The notes below the pieces were generated by a model. That model ran no database searches. It saw nothing but the letters and a program-made list of their open reading frames with translations, and had not been told where the DNA came from. Of a stretch of DNA of 64,000 nt, positions 41,837 to 48,544 are shown in pieces; positions within the stretch are counted from its first letter, which is position 1, and every line of letters begins with the position of its first letter. The translations under genes were made by a program, and so were the position numbers. Source of the stretch: Ramlibacter albus (lineage in GTDB: Bacteria > Pseudomonadota > Gammaproteobacteria > Burkholderiales > Burkholderiaceae_C); the NCBI RefSeq assembly GCF_014297445.1, contig NZ_JACORU010000014.1, positions 1 to 64,000 of the forward strand. Reading direction: 5' to 3'.

Positions 41837-42301
41837 TTACGCAGGCCGCAGCCCGGCCGTGATTCGCGGCCAGACGACGCGCTCGAGCGACCATTTGCCC
41901 GGCCCGAAGACGGCGATGCCGGCGAGGAGCGAGCCCCAGAACACGTGCTGCTGCAAGGCGGCAGGCGCGATCTCCGGGAGCGACAGCACGGCGACGACGT
42001 TCACGACCGAAAGCCCCAGCGCCGCGAACCGGCCGCCCAGCCCAAGGATGAGCAGCACGGGCAGCACGAGCTCGCCACCCGTGCCCATCACGGCGGCCAG
42101 CTGCGGCGGCAGCAACGGCACGTGGTACTCGTCCGTGAACAGCGCCAGGGTCGTGTCCCAATCGCGGATCTTCGTCAGCCCGGAAAGGAAGAAGGCCTGC
42201 GCGACGTACGCCCTCGCGGCGAGCGCGGCGAGGGGCTGCAGGGCGTCAAGCGCGGCGACGATGGACTGCCAGGCGGCCAGGATGCGGTCGATGTATTTCA
42301 T
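41837..42301 (-). CDS. DoxX-family membrane protein (gigT position)
   Basis: The 154-residue protein has four membrane helices (VAQAFFLSGLTKIRDWDTTL, AVMGTGGELVLPVLLILGLG, AALGLSVVNVVAVLSLPEIA, VFWGSLLAGIAVFGPGKWSL). It belongs to the DoxX/quinol-related group. In bufferin and gig operons a DoxX protein closes the set and may supply or accept electrons. The start overlaps the bufC stop by 4 bases, so it is part of the same message. Confidence 0.85.
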   Translation of the reverse strand: MKYIDRILAAWQSIVAALDALQPLAALAARAYVAQAFFLSGLTKIRDWDTTLALFTDEYHVPLLPPQLAAVMGTGGELVLPVLLILGLGGRFAALGLSVVNVVAVLSLPEIAPAALQQHVFWGSLLAGIAVFGPGKWSLERVVWPRITAGLRPA

Positions 42302-43005
42302 GAAGGCTTCTCCAAAGTGCGGATGCGGCAGGCACGCAGCACGAGTTGCTGCTCCACCGCGGATGCGAGCCAGCTCGCGAAGTCGATGCCGGGTGCGGCG
42401 TCGAGCGCGGATGCGAGCGGTTGCCGCGCGAGCAGGGCGGCGACGAGTTCGGCCTCACCTTGCGCGAGCGGCCGCGACACGGGCCGGAAACCCTGCCGCC
42501 ACACCAGCGTGTCGCCCACGAGCGCCGTCGCGGGCGCGAGGCGCAAGGTCACGCGGTCGGGCGGCAGGTTCACCAGCAGCTGCAGCGTGGGCAACTGCTG
42601 CGCGTCGTTGGCGGCCGTTGCTGCGCAGTGCAGCGCCCAGTCGACACGTGCGAGGTGCGCGAGCTGCGGCTCGTCGGCCACCAGCTGGGGAATCGACTCG
42701 ATGTGCTGCGCGAGCCTTGCGCCCCAGCGTGCGATGTCGCCTTGCGCGGGCGGGCGGCGCAGCCAGTGCGTGCGCGCGAGGCCGTCGAAGTTCTCTTCGC
42801 CGAGCACGTGCAGCACGGTGGGGTACGCGGCGGCCAGCGCGCGACTGGCGAGTGCGCGCCCGTTGGCGCGATAAGCGCGCAACCCTCGCACCGACTTCCC
42901 GTCCGCGCGAGCCAGCTGCGGACCGGCGAGCAACGCCGCCGTCTCGATCCCCGGCAACCACAAGGAACGCAGCAGCGCCCGTTGCTGGGCGGCGAGGGCG
43001 TTCAT
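42298..43005 (-). CDS. bufC: BufC/GigB-type partner protein (DUF2063)
   Basis: The 235-residue protein starts [20 protein letters not shown] and has the DUF2063 N-terminal helical domain ([40 protein letters not shown]), then a C-terminal domain. This is the RiPP-recognition partner of the MNIO enzyme BufB in bufferin synthesis (established for related operons). The start overlaps bufB by 4 bases and the stop overlaps the DoxX gene by 4. Confidence 0.88.
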
Positions 43006-43856
43006 GCGGCGAGCTCCACTTGCTGCAGCACGTTGCGGGCCACGTGCTGTGCGATGGCCGCTTCGTCCAGCAGGGTGTCGAGCGCAGGCACATCGGTGTC
43101 CCATTCGACCAGTGTGGGCACCTCGCCGAAGCAGAGCAGCGCATGTTCGTAGACCCGCCACACGCCGGCCGCGACGCGGCTGCCGTGGTCGTCGATGACG
43201 ATGTCGTCCAGCACCTTGTGCCCCGCGACGTGGATCTCGCCGACGCAGCCGGTGGGGATGCGGTCGAGCCAGCGGTTGCAGGCCGCGACAGGATCGGCCT
43301 CGCCGGCATTCAGCGCATTGACGTAGATGTTGTTCACGTCGACCAGCAGCTGGCAGCCGGTGCGCCGCGCGAGTTCGGCCAGGAAGTCCGGCTCGTCGCG
43401 ATCGGCGCCCGCGAGCGTGATGTACGCGGAGAGGTTCTCCACGAGCAGGGGGCGCTTCAGGCGGTCCTGCACGCGCTGCACGTTGGCGCACAGCACGGCG
43501 AGCGCCTGCGCATTGAAGGGCAGGGGCAGCAGGTCGGCCGCATGCAGGCAGCGGCCGCCGATCAACCCGCGCGCGAACGACGCGTGGTCGCTCACGCGCA
43601 CCGGGTCGATGCGGTCGACCAGCCGCTCCAGCTGGTTGAGGTGCCACGCGTCGATACCCGCGGCCGAACCGAGCGAGAGCCCCACGCCGTGCAGGCTGAC
43701 CGGGTACTCGCGCCGGCCCGCCTCGAGCACCGCGAGCGCGGCGCCGCCTTCACCGAAGAAGTTCTCCGAATGCACTTCGATGAAGTCCAGCGCGGGCCGC
43801 TGCTCGAGCAGCTCGCCGTAGTGCGCGTGGCGCCAGCCGATGCCGACCTGCGTCAT
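43002..43856 (-). CDS. bufB: BufB, MNIO-family (DUF692) multinuclear iron oxidase
   Basis: The 284-residue TIM-barrel enzyme modifies Cys residues of the BufA precursor, in related systems to thiooxazole-type groups that bind copper. Iron-ligand residues are placed in [64 protein letters not shown] and VEWDTDVP. These His, Glu and Asp positions match DUF692. It follows bufA by 7 bases. Confidence 0.92.
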
Positions 43857-43863
43857 GGCCCGC

Positions 43864-44142
43864 TTACGCCTTCTTGGCCTTGGCCTTGGCTTCGTCGGCC
43901 GTCAGGCCGCCCATGGATTTGCAGCTGCCTTTCTCGACGTACTTCCAGGCGCCGGGGTCGTTGTCGGCCTTGGCCTGGCCCGCGCAGGAGTGCGTGCCGG
44001 CGATGTTGGCGCAGTCGTTCTGGCCGGCCTTGGCGATGCCGTAGCACTTGTCCTTGCCGGGTTGCGGCGCGGCGGGGCCGGCCAGCAGCGTGGTGGACAG
44101 CACGGACAGCGCGGCGGCGGCGATCAGGGCACGTTGGTTCAT
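43864..44142 (-). CDS. bufA: BufA-type bufferin precursor (DUF2282)
   Basis: The 92-residue peptide has a signal ([20 protein letters not shown], cleavage near LAG) and four Cys at residues 33, 44, 53 and 74 in the order [24 protein letters not shown], and KGSCKSMGG. This is the four-Cys BufA1/GigP class, exported and used as a periplasmic metal-binding peptide after modification by BufB/BufC. AAGGAG lies 11 bases before ATG 44142. It is the first gene of a four-gene operon (bufA-bufB-bufC-DoxX), the same order as gigPABT in Cupriavidus. Confidence 0.93.
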
Positions 44143-44200: not shown

Positions 44201-44226
44201 GTCGGGGCTGCGCGCAGGTTCTTACA
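44201..44226 (-). promoter_or_regulatory. ECF-type promoter of the bufferin operon
   Basis: Reverse strand TGTAAGA (44226-44220), 15 bases, then CGAC (44204-44201). The identical layout precedes the AraC gene on the + strand and the nucleotide cyclase. ECF sigma factors of related bufferin/gig operons use a similar -35 GTAA and -10 CGAA-type motif. The start of transcription would fall near 44195, about 50 bases before bufA. Confidence 0.6.
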
Positions 44227-44238
44227 CGCCGCATGCGA

Positions 44239-44264
44239 TGTAAGGCGCGGCGCGTGCGTGCGAC
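44239..44264 (+). promoter_or_regulatory. ECF-type promoter of the AraC-family gene
   Basis: TGTAAGG (44239-44245), 15 bases, CGAC (44261-44264), on the + strand. The two divergent -35 boxes give TTACA-N12-TGTAA (44222-44243). Transcription would begin near 44271, 0-3 bases before ATG 44273, so the araC-type message may have almost no leader. Confidence 0.6.
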
Positions 44265-44272
44265 CTCTCGTC

Positions 44273-45079
44273 ATGTACGACCTGATCTTCGACAGCGGCC
44301 AGCTGGCCGCGCGCGTGGTGTTCGTGGGCACGCGCTGCTCCCGCGACAACCTGCTGCGCAATTACCGGACGGGCTCCATCCATTTCGTGCGCTCGGGCCG
44401 CGCGGAGGTGCTCACCGGGCAAGGTGCGCCGATCCGCATCGAGGAGCCTTCGCTGGTGTTCTTCCCGCTCGGTTGCCCGCACTGGGTGCGCGCCATGGAC
44501 GACGAGGGCTTCGACCTCGTGTGCGCTTTCACGAGTTATGGCGAGGGCTTCAGCCAGGCCATCTCGCTGTCGTTCCCCGAAGTGCTCGTGATGCCGCTCG
44601 CGCGCCTCGACGGCATCCGCCAACTGCTTGACGCCTTTTTCGCCGAAGCGGCGTCACAAGCGCCGGGCAGCCGGCAGCTCGCGGACCGCTTGTGCGAAGT
44701 GGTGCTCGGCTACATCGCGCGCCATGCGCTCGAAAGCGGCCGCTGCGCTGCAGGCGCGCTGGCGGGTGCCAGCGACCCGCAGATCGCAGCGGCCCTGCGC
44801 GCCATCCACACACGCTACCCCACCGCACTGGACATCGACGCGCTCGCGGCCGAAGCGGGCATGTCGCGCTCGCGCTTCGTGGAGCGCTTCCGCGCGGTGG
44901 TGGGCACCAGCCCGCACGACTACCTCACGCACTACCGCATCGGCGTCGCGCAGCAGCTGCTGCGCCGCCGCGTGCCGGTGAAGACCGTCGCCGGCCGGGT
45001 CGGCTACACCAGCGTTGCCGCCTTCGTGCGCCGCTTCAAGGGCGTGGTGGGCCTGCCGCCCGCCGCCTGGGCCGGATAG
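44273..45079 (+). CDS. AraC-family regulator with cupin-like N-terminal domain
   Basis: The 268-residue protein has an N-terminal cupin-like sensor (TGSIHFVRSGRAEVLTGQGA; EPSLVFFPLGCPHWVRAMDD) and C-terminal paired HTH (LAAEAGMSRSRFVERFRAVV, SPHDYLTHYRIGVAQQLLRR, VAGRVGYTSVAAFVRRFKGV). It is the AraC type with Cys in the sensor (C-P-H-W). It is divergent from the bufferin operon and shares its promoter type, so it may control bufA in addition to the ECF sigma. ATG 44273 is family-typical; no ribosome site is seen. Confidence 0.88.
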   Translation: MYDLIFDSGQLAARVVFVGTRCSRDNLLRNYRTGSIHFVRSGRAEVLTGQGAPIRIEEPSLVFFPLGCPHWVRAMDDEGFDLVCAFTSYGEGFSQAISLSFPEVLVMPLARLDGIRQLLDAFFAEAASQAPGSRQLADRLCEVVLGYIARHALESGRCAAGALAGASDPQIAAALRAIHTRYPTALDIDALAAEAGMSRSRFVERFRAVVGTSPHDYLTHYRIGVAQQLLRRRVPVKTVAGRVGYTSVAAFVRRFKGVVGLPPAAWAG

Positions 45080-45149
45080 CAAACACTCGCGGCCGATCGG
45101 GCAACAGGAGCGGGGCTCGCGCAACGACAGTTCACCGTCCGGCCTGCTC

Positions 45150-45476
45150 ATGGCCGAACCCACAGCCCGGGAGCTTTCGATGCTGCACCCTGCCGAACCC
45201 GATGCCGACACGCGCTTGCGCGCGGTGGAGGAGCTCGACGAGTTCGTCGCCGAGATCGTGCGATGCGCGCACAGGCGCGGCATCCATGTGCCGCCGCACC
45301 TGTTCGATTGGGCGGTCGGCGAAGGCTCCTGGGCTGTGGCCCTGTTCGCGGCTCGTTGCCCGCACGCCGCACTGCGCACCGCGGTGCGGCAGTGGGTCGC
45401 GCCGTACATCGCCTCGCACTTCGGGAACTTGCGCGAGGTCCTTGCCTGTCTGCTTCAACTTGAGGAATCGAAATGA
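45150..45476 (+). CDS. Hypothetical protein coupled to the EF-hand gene
   Basis: The 108-residue helical, cytosol-type protein starts MAEPTARELSMLHPAEPDAD; a second ATG is at 45180. It has HRRGIHVPPHLFDWAVGEGS and two Cys plus a His pair (ARCPHAALRTAVRQWVAPYI). I do not recognise a family. It lies 70 bases after the AraC gene on the same strand and overlaps the EF-hand gene by ATGA, so the two are cotranslated. Confidence 0.55.
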   Translation: MAEPTARELSMLHPAEPDADTRLRAVEELDEFVAEIVRCAHRRGIHVPPHLFDWAVGEGSWAVALFAARCPHAALRTAVRQWVAPYIASHFGNLREVLACLLQLEESK

Positions 45477-45760
45477 CTTTCCAGAAAATCGCCGGCCGCA
45501 TCGCGGTTGCCACTTCCATCCTGTGCGCGGGCAGCGCTTTCGCCGCCGGCCCTACCAACGCCGAGTACTACCCCTTCGCCGAGATCATGGCCATGAAGAT
45601 GATGGACAAGAACAAGGACGGCATGGTGTCCAAGAAGGAGTTCATGGACATGATGGGCATGGCCTGGGACATGAACGCGAGGAAGATGGGCGCCAAGGGC
45701 GACATGCTCACCGTGCAGCAGTTCCAGGAACTGCTGTCGTACATGCGGGCGGGCGGCTGA
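45473..45760 (+). CDS. Exported EF-hand calcium-binding-type protein
   Basis: The 95-residue protein has a signal peptide (MTFQKIAGRIAVATSILCAG, cleavage near AFAAG). The mature part has one canonical 12-residue EF loop DKNKDGMVSKKE with Asp at 1, 3-like Asn, Asp 5 and Glu 12, preceded and followed by Met-rich helices (EIMAMKMMDK; FMDMMGMAWDMN). The many Met could bind Cu(I), in line with the bufferin neighbour, but this is inference. The stop is one base before the cyclase stop on the other strand. Confidence 0.82.
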   Translation: MTFQKIAGRIAVATSILCAGSAFAAGPTNAEYYPFAEIMAMKMMDKNKDGMVSKKEFMDMMGMAWDMNARKMGAKGDMLTVQQFQELLSYMRAGG

Positions 45761-47173
45761 TCAGCCGATCTCGTAGACGGTGTAGTCGTCGGCGATCCCG
45801 CGCAGGGCGCACTTGCGCGGGGTCGCCTTCAGGCCGGCACGCGAAATGAGCTCGCTGGAGGCCTGGTGCGAGATGACCGGCTCGGTCGCGAAAACCGACG
45901 CGGAATCGGCCAGCGCCTGCACGCGCGAGGCGATGTTCACGGTCTGGCCGAAGTAGTCGAGCCGGTCGTTCAGCGTGACGGCCAGGCACGGCCCTTCGTG
46001 CATGCCGATCTTGAGCATCAGGTCCTCGCGGCCGTGCGACTCGTTCAGGCGCTGCATGGCCTCGCGCATGCGCAGCACGGCGGCGATGCCGCGGTCCGAT
46101 GAAGGGAAGGTGGCCATCACCGCGTCGCCGATGGTCTTGACGACCGCGCCCGACTCGCTGGCCACCGCGTGCCCGAGCACGCCGAAGTGCGCCTTCACCA
46201 GCTCGTACGCGGCGAGGTCGCCCACGCGCTCGTACAGCTCGGTCGACGCCTTGAGGTCCGTGAACACGAAAGCAAGGTTGGTGATCTTCAGCCGCTGGTC
46301 CGGCGCCAGCGTCTCGGCGCCGAACAGGTTGCGAAAGGTCTGGTGCGTGAGCAGGCGCTGCGCGGTGAGGAACTGCTTGCGCCGGCCCAGCATGTGGTGC
46401 AGCGCGTCCCCGGCGATGAAGAGGGCCGGCAGCACGCGCGTGTCGGTGCGGTTCTCCAGCGTCAGGCGCAGCGGGCCGGGCCGCATCATGTGCTTGGCCG
46501 TGGGCGACTGCACCTGGTTGAACACGATGCCCAGCTCCTGCCGCTCGCGCGTGGGCTCGCCCTGGATGTCCATGAAGACCGCCGCGTGCGTGACGGGCTC
46601 GAACGCGATGATGAACCCCGGTGGCAGCTGCACGGACATCGTGGCTTTCTCGCCCGCGCCGATCTCCACCCAGTCCAGCACCATGTCCTGCATGTGCTTC
46701 GCGAAATCCTCCGGCGGGGGCAGCACGATGCCCGACGCCCAGAACATCTGGCGCACGTATTCCCACATTGGCAGCTCGTGCGGCGTGTGGGCCGCGATCC
46801 TGCGCACGCGCGGGTTGACGGTGAAGGAGACCTCCACCACTTCATCGAGCGTGGGCTCGTAGTGGGCCGCGCAGATCGCGCAGTTGTATTCGCTGCGGTC
46901 GACGGAGCGCAGCGTGGCGTTGGCGTGCAGCACGCCGCCGCAGCCGGGGCACAGGATGTTCCAGGACATGTCGAACATGCCCAGCCGCGAAGCGTGCAGG
47001 AAGGCGTCGAGTGCCTTCTCCATGGGCAGGTTGCGCTGCTCGGCGAACTCGATCACGTTGACGCGGTTGAGGTCCGGGTCGGCGCCGTCCCGGACGAGGG
47101 CCTCGAGGGCCGCGACCGCGGCGGGGTCGGCGGACTGGCGCAGGACGCTGAACCGGGATTCGGTATCGCTCAT
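45761..47173 (-). CDS. Class III nucleotide cyclase with N-terminal DUF5939-like and zinc-ribbon parts
   Basis: The 470-residue protein has an N-terminal region with a zinc ribbon (Cys 75, 78, 98, 101 in CPGCGGV and NCAICAA), a middle DUF5939-type domain, and a C-terminal class III cyclase: FTDLKASTELYERVGDLAAY (metal Asp near residue 303), GAVVKTIGDAVMATFPSSDR, FGQTVNIASRVQAL. It should make cAMP or cGMP. GGAGGTT precedes ATG 47173. An ECF-type promoter (47202-47227) lies just upstream. Divergent from the sigma factor. Confidence 0.9.
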   Translation of the reverse strand: MSDTESRFSVLRQSADPAAVAALEALVRDGADPDLNRVNVIEFAEQRNLPMEKALDAFLHASRLGMFDMSWNILCPGCGGVLHANATLRSVDRSEYNCAICAAHYEPTLDEVVEVSFTVNPRVRRIAAHTPHELPMWEYVRQMFWASGIVLPPPEDFAKHMQDMVLDWVEIGAGEKATMSVQLPPGFIIAFEPVTHAAVFMDIQGEPTRERQELGIVFNQVQSPTAKHMMRPGPLRLTLENRTDTRVLPALFIAGDALHHMLGRRKQFLTAQRLLTHQTFRNLFGAETLAPDQRLKITNLAFVFTDLKASTELYERVGDLAAYELVKAHFGVLGHAVASESGAVVKTIGDAVMATFPSSDRGIAAVLRMREAMQRLNESHGREDLMLKIGMHEGPCLAVTLNDRLDYFGQTVNIASRVQALADSASVFATEPVISHQASSELISRAGLKATPRKCALRGIADDYTVYEIG

Positions 47174-47201
47174 GGAACCTCCACGGGTTTCGCACCGTTT
47201 G

Positions 47202-47227
47202 GTCGTGTGCGATCATCAAGTCTTACA
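47202..47227 (-). promoter_or_regulatory. ECF-type promoter of the cyclase gene
   Basis: TGTAAGA (47227-47221), 15 bases, CGAC (47205-47202), reverse strand. It is the same heptamer and spacing as at bufA (44226-44201). Transcription would start near 47195, about 22 bases upstream of ATG 47173, with GGAGG in between. Confidence 0.6.
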
Positions 47228-47230
47228 CCG

Positions 47231-47797
47231 ATGAGCATCGAAAGCCAACTTGCCGACCACCGGGTGTACCTGCTGAGGTACGCCCGGCTGCAGTTGCGCA
47301 ACGACGCCTGGGCGGAGGATGCCGTTTCCGAGACGCTCCTGGCGGCCGTCGCCAAGCCGCAATCCTTTGCCAACCGCAGCCAGCTCAAGACCTGGCTGGT
47401 GGGCATCCTCAAGCACAAGATTGTCGACGCGCTGCGGCAGCGCAGCCGCGAGGTGGCGCTGGACACGGACGAGGGCGACGGCAGCGAGGAGCTGGAGGCG
47501 CTGGCTTTCAAGGCCGACGGCCACTTCCAGCAGCAGCCGGCCGACTGGGGCAACCCCGAGCAGGACCTGAGCCGGCGCCAGTTCTTCGCGGTGCTGGAAG
47601 CGTGCACCGACAAGCTGCCGCCCGCCATGGGCCGGCTCTTCCTGATGCGGGAGTGGCTGGAGCTGTCCAGCGAGGACATCTGTAAGGAACTCCAGCTGAC
47701 GCCGACGAACCTGTACGTCCAGCTGCACCGCGCCCGCTTGCGCCTGCGCGAGTGCCTGGAGCTGAACTGGTTCGGTAACAAGGAAGCCTCGTCGTGA
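47231..47797 (+). CDS. ECF-type sigma factor
   Basis: The 188-residue sigma factor has region 2 (LLRYARLQLRNDAWAEDAVS; ETLLAAVAKPQSF and KTWLVGILKHKIVDALRQR) and region 4 (VLEACTDKLPPAMGRLFLMR; LSSEDICKELQLTPTNLYVQ, LHRARLRLRECLE). It is the likely driver of the three TGTAAGR-N15-CGAC promoters nearby, in the manner of RpoQ at gig operons. Its own -35/-10 is not clear; GGAACC-N16-CGTT at 47174-47199 is a weak candidate. It overlaps the anti-sigma gene by 4 bases. Confidence 0.9.
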   Translation: MSIESQLADHRVYLLRYARLQLRNDAWAEDAVSETLLAAVAKPQSFANRSQLKTWLVGILKHKIVDALRQRSREVALDTDEGDGSEELEALAFKADGHFQQQPADWGNPEQDLSRRQFFAVLEACTDKLPPAMGRLFLMREWLELSSEDICKELQLTPTNLYVQLHRARLRLRECLELNWFGNKEASS

Positions 47798-47991
47798 CAA
47801 TGCTGCGCCGCACCTGCAAGGAGGTCGCCGCCCTCCTGGTGGCTCGCGAAGACCGCGAGCTGTCGGCGGTCGACCGCCTGGCGCTGCGGCTGCACCTGGC
47901 GGCGTGCAAGGCGTGCCCGGACTTCGAGCGGCAGATCCTGACCATGCGCAATGCGTTCGCGCGATGGCGCAATTACCAGGAAGGCGATTGA
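47794..47991 (+). CDS. Zinc-finger anti-sigma factor (zf-HC2)
   Basis: The 65-residue protein has the HxxxCxxC zinc motif in LHLAACKACPDFERQI, with an upstream Cys near residue 8 (RTCKEVAALL). It has no membrane helix, so it is a cytosolic ZAS-type anti-sigma. GTG 47794 lies inside the sigma stop (GTGA). Release by oxidation or metal would free the sigma factor. Confidence 0.85.
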   Translation: MTMLRRTCKEVAALLVAREDRELSAVDRLALRLHLAACKACPDFERQILTMRNAFARWRNYQEGD

Positions 47992-47994
47992 GCT

Positions 47995-48468
47995 GTGAAG
48001 CGCCGGGCGCTCGTGCTCGCAGCGACGCATGCGCTTGCTGTCGTGGCCGGGTTCGCGCTCGGCGTGTACTTCCTGCCCATCCTCGCGGCACCGCCGTCGC
48101 CGACCACGGCGCAGGTGCGCGATGTCTCCAAGGGTGCGAGCTACCACGGTGAATTCCGCCGCGCGCTGAAGGGCAGCGACGCGCTGCACTGGGGCGAAGG
48201 CCGCGTGAGCATCTCGCCGCAGGCGGTGAGCCTCGAAGGCCGCATCGCGCCCGGGCCTGCGTACCGCCTCTACCTCGTGCCCGAGTTCGTGGAGACCGGC
48301 GAGGACTTCCAGCGCTTGAAAGCGCGCTCGCTCATGGCGGGCGACATCAAGACCTTCGAGAATTTCCTCGTGCACCTGCCCGCCGGCACGGTGCTGGAGG
48401 AGTACCGCGCCGTGGTGGTGTGGTGCGAGGCGTTCTCGCAGTTCATCACGGCGGCGCGGTACCGGTAG
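47995..48468 (+). CDS. Exported DM13-domain protein
   Basis: The 157-residue protein starts GTG 47995 with an N-terminal membrane/signal helix (AATHALAVVAGFALGVYFLP). The DM13 domain follows: GASYHGEFRRALKGSDALHW, VSLEGRIAPGPAYRLYLVPE, FENFLVHLPAGTVLEEYRAV, VVWCEAFSQFITAARYR. DM13 is linked to electron transfer with a redox Cys (here in VVWCEAF). It is third in the sigma operon, 3 bases after the anti-sigma. Confidence 0.85.
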   Translation: MKRRALVLAATHALAVVAGFALGVYFLPILAAPPSPTTAQVRDVSKGASYHGEFRRALKGSDALHWGEGRVSISPQAVSLEGRIAPGPAYRLYLVPEFVETGEDFQRLKARSLMAGDIKTFENFLVHLPAGTVLEEYRAVVVWCEAFSQFITAARYR

Positions 48469-48481
48469 GGGTGTGAAAAAG

Positions 48482-48544
48482 GGACATATATGACCGATAA
48501 AGCCGGATAAGCGGTCATATATGTCCGGAGTTTCACGAAACTCC
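48482..48544 (-). terminator. Long hairpin pair between convergent genes
   Basis: GGACATATATGACCG (48482-48496) and CGGTCATATATGTCC (48512-48526) form a perfect 15-bp stem; outer GTGAAA/TTTCAC can extend it. On the reverse strand it is followed by CTTTTT, so it should end the Bug receptor transcript. A second stem, GGAGTTTC/GAAACTCC (48527-48534, 48537-48544), is next to it. It lies between DM13 and the Bug gene and may serve both. Confidence 0.75.

Follow-up and report, generated by a model that had tools for sequence, protein, structure and literature searches.

Do a bufferin operon, an AraC-family regulator gene and a class III nucleotide cyclase gene of Ramlibacter albus answer to a single extracytoplasmic function (ECF) sigma factor? 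The three lie in positions 1-64,000 of contig NZ_JACORU010000014.1 (assembly GCF_014297445.1, forward strand), the 64-kb stretch that we analyzed as a whole and call the window, and the initial annotation had placed one motif, TGTAAGR-N15-CGAC, before each of them. The sites are exactly where it had put them, at 44226-44201 (minus strand), 44239-44264 (plus strand) and 47227-47202 (minus strand), with both boxes and the 15-base spacer intact, and we estimate a probability of roughly 0.8 that they are promoters read by the ECF sigma factor encoded beside them. TGTAAGR-N15-CGAC is hereafter the exact motif; two further notations are TGTAAG-N16-CGAC and the general form YGTAAG-N17-GAC-YAA. Motif counts were compared with those of the same pattern written backwards and, for bufA, also with the opposite strand. 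The matches in the window and the candidate reader are:

44201..44226, minus strand: box TGTAAGAACCTGCGCGCAGCCCCGAC, proposed bufA promoter; a related box precedes bufA in relatives
44239..44264, plus strand: box TGTAAGGCGCGGCGCGTGCGTGCGAC, proposed promoter of the araC operon, 8 nucleotides (nt) before the ATG
47202..47227, minus strand: box TGTAAGACTTGATGATCGCACACGAC, proposed cyclase promoter; the sigma ATG, on the other strand, is 3 nt away
47681..47706, plus strand: fourth exact match, a coding coincidence within the sigma gene (peptide CKEL...PT)
47231..47797, plus strand: ECF sigma factor of the TIGR02943/PRK12520 family, the proposed reader of the box (NF009173, 299.7 bits, cut-off 255; TIGR02943, 234.2 bits, cut-off 162.2)

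The window thus holds four exact matches, compared with a mean of 0.01 and a maximum of 1 in 100 dinucleotide shuffles. The initial annotation had omitted the one at 47681-47706 (plus strand), which we rejected as a promoter: it encodes CKELQLTPT in the sigma gene, and since most of 80 relatives have this conserved peptide and the match there too, we read it as a coding coincidence. From CGAC to the start codon the distance is 58 nt for bufA, 8 nt for araC and 28 nt for the cyclase gene, and in the whole R. albus genome (G000, 6.15 Mb) six of the seven exact matches sit 8-58 nt 5′ of a start codon in the correct orientation. The spacer is also preferred, N16 accounting for 7 of 9 TGTAAG-N14..18-CGAC matches in this genome; in six sigma-bearing genomes, N14, N15, N16, N17 and N18 were found 2, 15, 43, 9 and 10 times, respectively (79 in total, four of the 43 N16 cases being the coding match within the sigma gene). 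Outside the window, msrP has a one-base variant of the box 24 nt before its start, with N16 followed by AGAC (L131:511-1476), and a DUF1223 gene has another one-base variant, CGTAAG (L244:1564-2298); these variant boxes likely extend the predicted regulon past the window. Further exact sites precede a glutathione S-transferase (GST) gene (L006) and a histidine-kinase-like gene, named by eye (L001).

The first site precedes a predicted operon of four genes:

43864..44142, minus strand: bufA, DUF2282 bufferin precursor (PF10048), with four Cys and a signal-peptide-like start, both read by eye
43002..43856, minus strand: bufB, MNIO bufferin maturase (NF050167, 314.5 bits, cut-off 310)
42298..43005, minus strand: bufC, DUF2063 partner (PF09836)
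41837..42301, minus strand: DoxX-family membrane protein, the last gene of the bufferin operon (PF07681)

A DUF2282 precursor, an MNIO maturase, a DUF2063 partner and a DoxX protein together identify a Bufferin 1 cluster, and bufA is the only DUF2282 match in the genome. For the comparison with relatives we used the best 80 of 132 loci confirmed in a scan with the sigma protein, among which Ramlibacter, Caenimonas, Rhodoferax, Hydrogenophaga and Polaromonas are prominent; in flanks of up to 6 kb, 51 of the 80 have a bufA homologue near the sigma gene. TGTAAG-N17-GAC stands 90-139 nt 5′ of bufA at 39 of these 51 loci, and at none of them backwards or on the opposite strand. The remaining 12 comprise nine with CGTAAG at the same spacing, one with TGTAAT, one with TGTAAG and an additional spacer base, and one (L085) with CGTAAG and an additional base; [TC]GTAAG-N17/18-GAC hence precedes bufA at 50 of 51 loci, again with no match in either control, while the loosest pattern, fitted after the misses had been seen, covers all 51 (3 backwards, 2 on the opposite strand). 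All 39 exact cases have A at base 7 and 37 of them have A at base 29, from which the consensus TGTAAGAA-N15-GAC-YAA follows.

The motif also follows the sigma factor across the genus. At a threshold of E ≤ 1e-30, 20 of 59 genus genomes (R. albus included) have the sigma factor; since the match in G013 is weak, with only 44% identity, we counted this genome as lacking it, which leaves 19 sigma-bearing and 40 other genomes. Some of these are probably the same assemblies as the relatives' loci (G018 is L009, Caenimonas sedimenti; G020 is L014; G025 is L022; others likewise), as judged from matching sequence. Not counting the sigma gene, the exact motif occurs 58 times in the 19 sigma-bearing genomes (96.6 Mb) and 19 times in the other 40 (179.7 Mb), the backwards control giving 117 and 193, respectively, and the motif is associated with sigma presence (Mann-Whitney p 1.6e-7, a value that ignores kinship). 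By manual reading, 45 of the 58 matches precede a small number of families: MsrA, MsrB, MsrP, MsrQ, cytochrome b561, DUF1223, thioredoxin-like, DM13, EF-hand, AraC, bufA and a Cys-rich secreted protein. The Cys-rich gene beside uvrD accounts for 11 of the 45, four of them assigned from the match sequence alone; 34 of 47 remain without this family, and 32 of 42 when the R. albus genome is also left out. The other matches are the R. albus cyclase, GST and kinase-like genes, a LysR gene and sites without a clear gene. Nine of ten representative target proteins matched the expected profile (MsrP type twice, MsrA, MsrB, MsrQ with its ferric-reductase domain, DUF1223, DM13, cytochrome b561 and GST), the tenth, a Cys-rich protein, falling in no family; MsrP, MsrA, MsrB and MsrQ were named over the cut-off, and thioredoxin, EF-hand, AraC and LysR examples were confirmed by profile. 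Methionine sulfoxide reductase genes are therefore boxed both in R. albus (msrP, with its variant) and in relatives (msrA, msrB, msrQ and an MsrP-type molybdopterin oxidoreductase). We retrieved 18 of the 19 matches from the sigma-less genomes, 17 of them distinct: judged roughly by codon bias, six stand before what could well be a gene start (that of the Cys-rich gene in two cases), and most others lie inside a long open frame of another gene. The Cys-rich, secreted-looking family (ADCxxCW) is divergent from uvrD at L007, L160, L167-L169, L173, L180 and L187; the gene was read in L007 and eight relatives, L166 being less certain, UvrD was identified by profile in L007, and the L007 and L160 proteins have no Pfam match.

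The initial annotation had further described an ECF sigma/anti-sigma operon beside the cyclase (47231-48468), and profile matches to the sigma factor, zf-HC2 and DM13 agree with this. Downstream of the sigma gene the predicted operon contains:

47794..47991, plus strand: zinc-finger (zf-HC2) anti-sigma factor of 65 amino acids, with the zinc-binding anti-sigma (ZAS) motif C-X25-H-X3-C-X2-C (PF13490)
47995..48468, plus strand: DM13 (electron-transfer) protein, the third gene of the sigma operon (PF10517)

The pattern C-X22..27-H-X3-C-X2-C is present in this anti-sigma factor and in 79 of 79 anti-sigma matches from the 80 loci, and a DM13-like gene lies elsewhere behind a box of its own in G018 and G021 (L194, by profile, and L198). 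We also considered a system of the SigF/NrsF type, for which we take the label to be ECF16, and rejected it, the partner of the sigma factor being zf-HC2 rather than DUF1109. The sigma gene itself has no forward [TC]GTAAG-N16..18-GAC in the 200 nt 5′ of its start, at 79 loci and in the window; a related box stands on the opposite strand within 60 nt of the sigma start in 20 of the 79. Judged by eye, a TGTGCGATCAT-like sequence 5′ of the start seems conserved and may be a housekeeping promoter, from which the unboxed sigma gene is probably expressed. The sigma tree had too few supported branches to group the window sigma factor with bufferin-linked or with solitary copies. Directly past the DM13 stop, a 14-bp inverted repeat, GGACATATATGACC ... 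GGTCATATATGTCC (48482-48495 and 48513-48526), is AT-rich amid GC-rich DNA and could be an operator or a terminator. G010 has two sigma/anti-sigma copies (L147 and L139), one in a stretch without bufferin genes and the other adjoining tlpA-like-bufABC-doxX, where an EF-hand gene and msrA are boxed as well. More generally, bufA was not found in 14 of 20 genus stretches around the sigma gene (L133, L135, L143, L145 and others), some of which are short and one of which is the weak G013 match; upstream of several of these, the sequence resembles by eye the end of an ammonium-transporter gene.

The second site precedes three genes that run toward the cyclase gene:

44273..45079, plus strand: AraC-family regulator, cupin and helix-turn-helix (PF12833, PF12852)
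45180..45476, plus strand: small open reading frame (ORF) between araC and the EF-hand gene, with tblastn homologues at 48-49%
45473..45760, plus strand: EF-hand protein, secreted-looking (PF00036)

AraC homologues were found in 12 of the 59 genus genomes, R. albus included (E ≤ 1e-30). The four close orthologues (58-70%; G018, G028, G027 and G043) are all in sigma-bearing genomes, all have the box 8-9 nt before the ATG (with an additional spacer base in G028 and CGTAAG in G027), and all are followed on the same strand by an EF-hand gene; in G018 and G028 the small-ORF homologue lies directly 3′ of the EF-hand gene instead (L224 and L225, tblastn). The box is absent from six distant homologues (33-39%) with readable upstream sequence, among them G022, which has the sigma factor; the upstream sequence of one more distant homologue was unreadable. 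Near the sigma gene in the 80 loci, AraC is represented by a single partial match of 34% (L036). Because CGAC lies 8 nt before araC, and Neisseria SigE transcripts, by our calculation from the published promoter (PMC2893595), start about 10 nt after CGTC, we infer that transcription would begin on the ATG and that the araC mRNA would be leaderless.

The third site precedes the cyclase gene:

45761..47173, minus strand: DUF5939 plus class III nucleotide cyclase (PF19363, 436.8 bits; PF00211, 69 bits)

Among solved chains, Ma1120 is closest in sequence; FTD, VVKTIGD and DYFGQTVNIASR align with it, and in this alignment the catalytic domain has the metal-binding Asp, Lys, Asp and Asn-Arg residues that we take to be catalytic in class III cyclases; the catalytic residues are thus apparently intact. 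In class III cyclases a Lys/Asp pair is the rule for cyclic AMP (cAMP) over cyclic GMP, and its presence suggests that the window cyclase makes cAMP. A single-sequence structure prediction was unusable (mean pLDDT 38.5). The genome has 15 matches to the cyclase, nearly all in the catalytic domain, so that cyclic-nucleotide signalling is crowded and a cyclase linked to the ECF sigma factor would need to be distinguished from the others. Of 59 other genus genomes, 10 have a full-length orthologue (64-72%), a search of 299 sampled family genomes at E ≤ 1e-60 returned two matches, both from this genus, and the cyclase was found at none of the 80 loci of relatives. The cyclases of R. albus, G018 and G028 form a clade (support 96/95) and all are boxed: G018 has TGTAAGC-N15-CGAC 20 nt 5′ of the start and G028 the imperfect CGTAAG-N17-CGAC, each on a contig other than that of the sigma gene. 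In G050 the sigma gene is followed by divergent EF-hand and cyclase genes, with CGTAAGA-N15-CGAC before the EF-hand gene. On the cyclase tree the box requires at least two changes, either two gains or a gain and losses. With G004 left out, sigma accompanies the cyclase in 8 of 9 genomes, versus 10 of 49 genomes without the cyclase (p 1.7e-4, ignoring kinship).

The proposal of the initial annotation that one ECF regulon joins the bufferin operon, the AraC regulator and the cyclase is supported by the sigma association and by conservation of the box before bufA, araC and related cyclases, and this regulon is most likely of the envelope-oxidation/copper type of which Neisseria SigE is an example. 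In unstressed cells, the sigma factor would be held by its small ZAS-type zinc anti-sigma factor. As judged from published relatives, the sigma factor would be freed when the zinc-thiol site is oxidized or a related signal arises in the envelope (hypochlorous acid (HOCl)-like oxidants, copper), and would then start transcription at TGTAAG-N16-CGAC. The outputs predicted in the window are bufABC-doxX, araC-ORF-EF-hand (apparently leaderless) and the DUF5939 class III cyclase; elsewhere in the genome msrP and DUF1223 are likely targets, and GST and the Cys-rich secreted protein perhaps. A copper or gold signal is suggested by analogy with published relatives, and the targets would point at least equally to methionine oxidation of the HOCl-like kind. 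Through the cyclase, envelope repair and metal buffering would gain a second-messenger output, probably cAMP, and at the level of the promoter the cyclase link is quite probably real in this genome. More tentatively, and at somewhat less than even odds, an ECF sigma factor for methionine oxidation and copper in the envelope may have recruited a DUF5939 class III adenylate cyclase in this genus, perhaps on two occasions (the G000-G018-G028 clade and G050). Damage to the envelope would then raise cAMP, tying metal buffering and repair to a global second-messenger programme with a leaderless AraC/EF-hand arm.

Several observations weigh against the assignment of the boxes to the neighbouring sigma factor. 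The loci of relatives are related by descent, and because some of them also appear among the genus genomes, the two sets cannot count as independent evidence. The initial annotation had named genome-wide enrichment of the motif before ECF targets as a point that would favour its proposal. In R. albus we found no raw genome-wide enrichment, the exact motif occurring 7 times against 5 backwards, looser forms being rarer than their controls (9 vs 21, 9 vs 20 and 16 vs 37), and the N14-18 form in the six genomes counted above reaching 79 against 243. A raw count therefore proves nothing alone, and we rely on position, spacing, conservation and sigma presence. Chance could produce such sites, given that TGTAAG overlaps stop codons (two of the R. 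albus matches outside the window overlap TAA stops), that CGAC is common in GC-rich DNA and that the backwards control is about equally frequent; conservation before bufA, the spacing peak and the sigma association leave this explanation with next to no weight. For bufA and araC we hold it refuted by conservation of their boxes in relatives; the GST (L006) and L001 sites may be chance matches. The two -35 boxes between bufA and araC also form an inverted repeat, TCTTACA-N12-TGTAAGG, which might serve AraC or some other dimeric regulator as a palindromic operator. This is very improbable, given that relatives with no AraC nearby have a single box before bufA, that the cyclase gene and araC genes elsewhere also have just one, and that GAC at a constant distance is a feature of promoters. 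Another sigma factor of the genome could read the boxes, since there are 10 sigma-like matches, and the motif is present in 14 of the 40 genomes without the TIGR02943 sigma factor; two of these, G026 and G048, have the uvrD-adjacent match counted as a target elsewhere and, since that box also overlaps the uvrD coding start, we regard the Cys-rich gene as a weak target. A different reader is nevertheless doubtful: the motif excess tracks presence of the TIGR02943 sigma factor, the sigma gene lies near a boxed bufA at 51 of 80 loci, and the neighbour is the only one of the 10 to pass the TIGR02943 cut-off.

As regards the cyclase, bufA and araC could be true ECF targets and the cyclase box a leftover tlpA-like promoter, placing the gene under ECF control without a selected function. 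The window cyclase occupies the slot of a thioredoxin-like (tlpA-like) gene in relatives and may just have come to lie downstream of a promoter already there, a further point on the negative side. Among eight loci read for ORFs, a thioredoxin-like protein is encoded between bufA and sigma in L009, L012, L022, L024, L038 and L048, that of L009 matching AhpC-TSA, Redoxin and Thioredoxin_8; the gene was seen by tblastn in the genome of L014, and in L009 and L014 a box much like that of the window cyclase precedes it. No close copy was found in the R. albus genome (best 36%), and the spacer of the cyclase box is probably also constrained by the sigma gene start on the other strand. Equally unfavourable to ECF control of the cyclase, 8 of 11 genus cyclases have no box in the 258-300 nt directly upstream, G050 with its box before the EF-hand gene among them, and five of the seven boxless orthologues (G035, G022, G010, G043 and G020) come from sigma-bearing genomes; of the other two, G054 has no sigma factor and G004 lies outside the sigma survey. 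On the other hand, the sister cyclases of G018 and G028 are boxed on other contigs, G018 even keeping its tlpA-like gene in the slot, and G050 provides a further linkage of cyclase and sigma. We consider a mere leftover unlikely and favor the cyclase gene as a target of the neighbouring sigma factor.

How, then, does a regulon under the neighbouring sigma factor compare with known ones? The comparison draws on published descriptions, in the parts accessible to us. Neisseria meningitidis SigE (NMB2144) and MseR (NMB2140-2145 plus msrAB; PMC2893595) likewise form a pair of ECF sigma factor and small ZAS anti-sigma factor, which drives msrAB and a DoxX cluster that by our reading is of the bufferin type. 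Its boxes are GTMAGBWTT (-35) and CGTCTAAH (-10) (PMC2893595), at nearly the same spacing as in the window, with CGAC/NGAC here and CGTC there. The Neisseria sigma gene lies inside the DoxX operon and is autoregulated, whereas the window sigma gene is outside the bufferin operon and unboxed, and cyclase, araC and EF-hand targets are not mentioned in the accessible text (PMC2893595). Haemophilus influenzae RpoE2/HrsE is induced by HOCl, is paired with a 67-amino-acid ZAS anti-sigma factor and targets msrAB and a DoxX-DUF cluster, with weak autoregulation and, in the accessible text, no mention of a cyclase or AraC target (PMC7907618). The window system resembles these ZAS-type envelope-oxidation systems in its co-encoded small ZAS anti-sigma factor, its Msr targets (by box) and its GTAAG / CG(A/T)C promoter spacing.

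In Caulobacter, SigF/NrsF controls two DUF2282-DUF692-DUF2063 operons and a yedY-type gene (PMC3511200); its anti-sigma factor NrsF is a DUF1109 protein, in contrast to the zf-HC2 ZAS partner here, and the sigF promoter resembles those of its targets, unlike the window sigma gene, which has no target-type box (PMC3511200). In Cupriavidus metallidurans gigPABT-rpoQ, a bufferin-type operon is divergent from an ECF sigma gene (PMC10304878). There, rpoQ is RpoD-dependent, the anti-sigma factor is predicted to be membrane-bound, and the accessible part of the paper shows no control of gig by RpoQ and gives no promoter box (PMC10304878). The unboxed window sigma gene agrees with the RpoD-dependent rpoQ and the weakly autoregulated rpoE2, and sigma genes have been noted in bufferin-1 clusters (PMC12452194, accessible part).

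DUF5939 adenylate/guanylate cyclases are found on 79 plasmid records, nearly all rhizobial and below 60% (57-58% full-length among the 15 of 79 listed); the four of the 79 plasmid neighbourhoods that we opened list neither an ECF sigma nor a bufferin gene, in a gene table that is incomplete. A nucleotide cyclase as target of such a sigma factor was not found in the open-licence literature on DUF5939 or class III cyclases with ECF, which is weak evidence; where adenylate cyclase was mentioned in the text that we read, it served in two-hybrid assays. If the proposed regulon is correct, bufferin, Msr and thioredoxin-like functions would belong together in it and a second messenger would be an output of envelope oxidation. 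For the TIGR02943-type ECF sigma factor, whose gene neighbours bufferin operons in many genomes of the Comamonadaceae type, the regulon would provide a list of targets and a promoter code that can be tested. Bufferin-type operons and msr-type genes have already been described as jointly ECF-controlled in Caulobacter (SigF), Neisseria (SigE) and Haemophilus (RpoE2), as far as the accessible parts of those papers go; the link to a cyclase is the new element.

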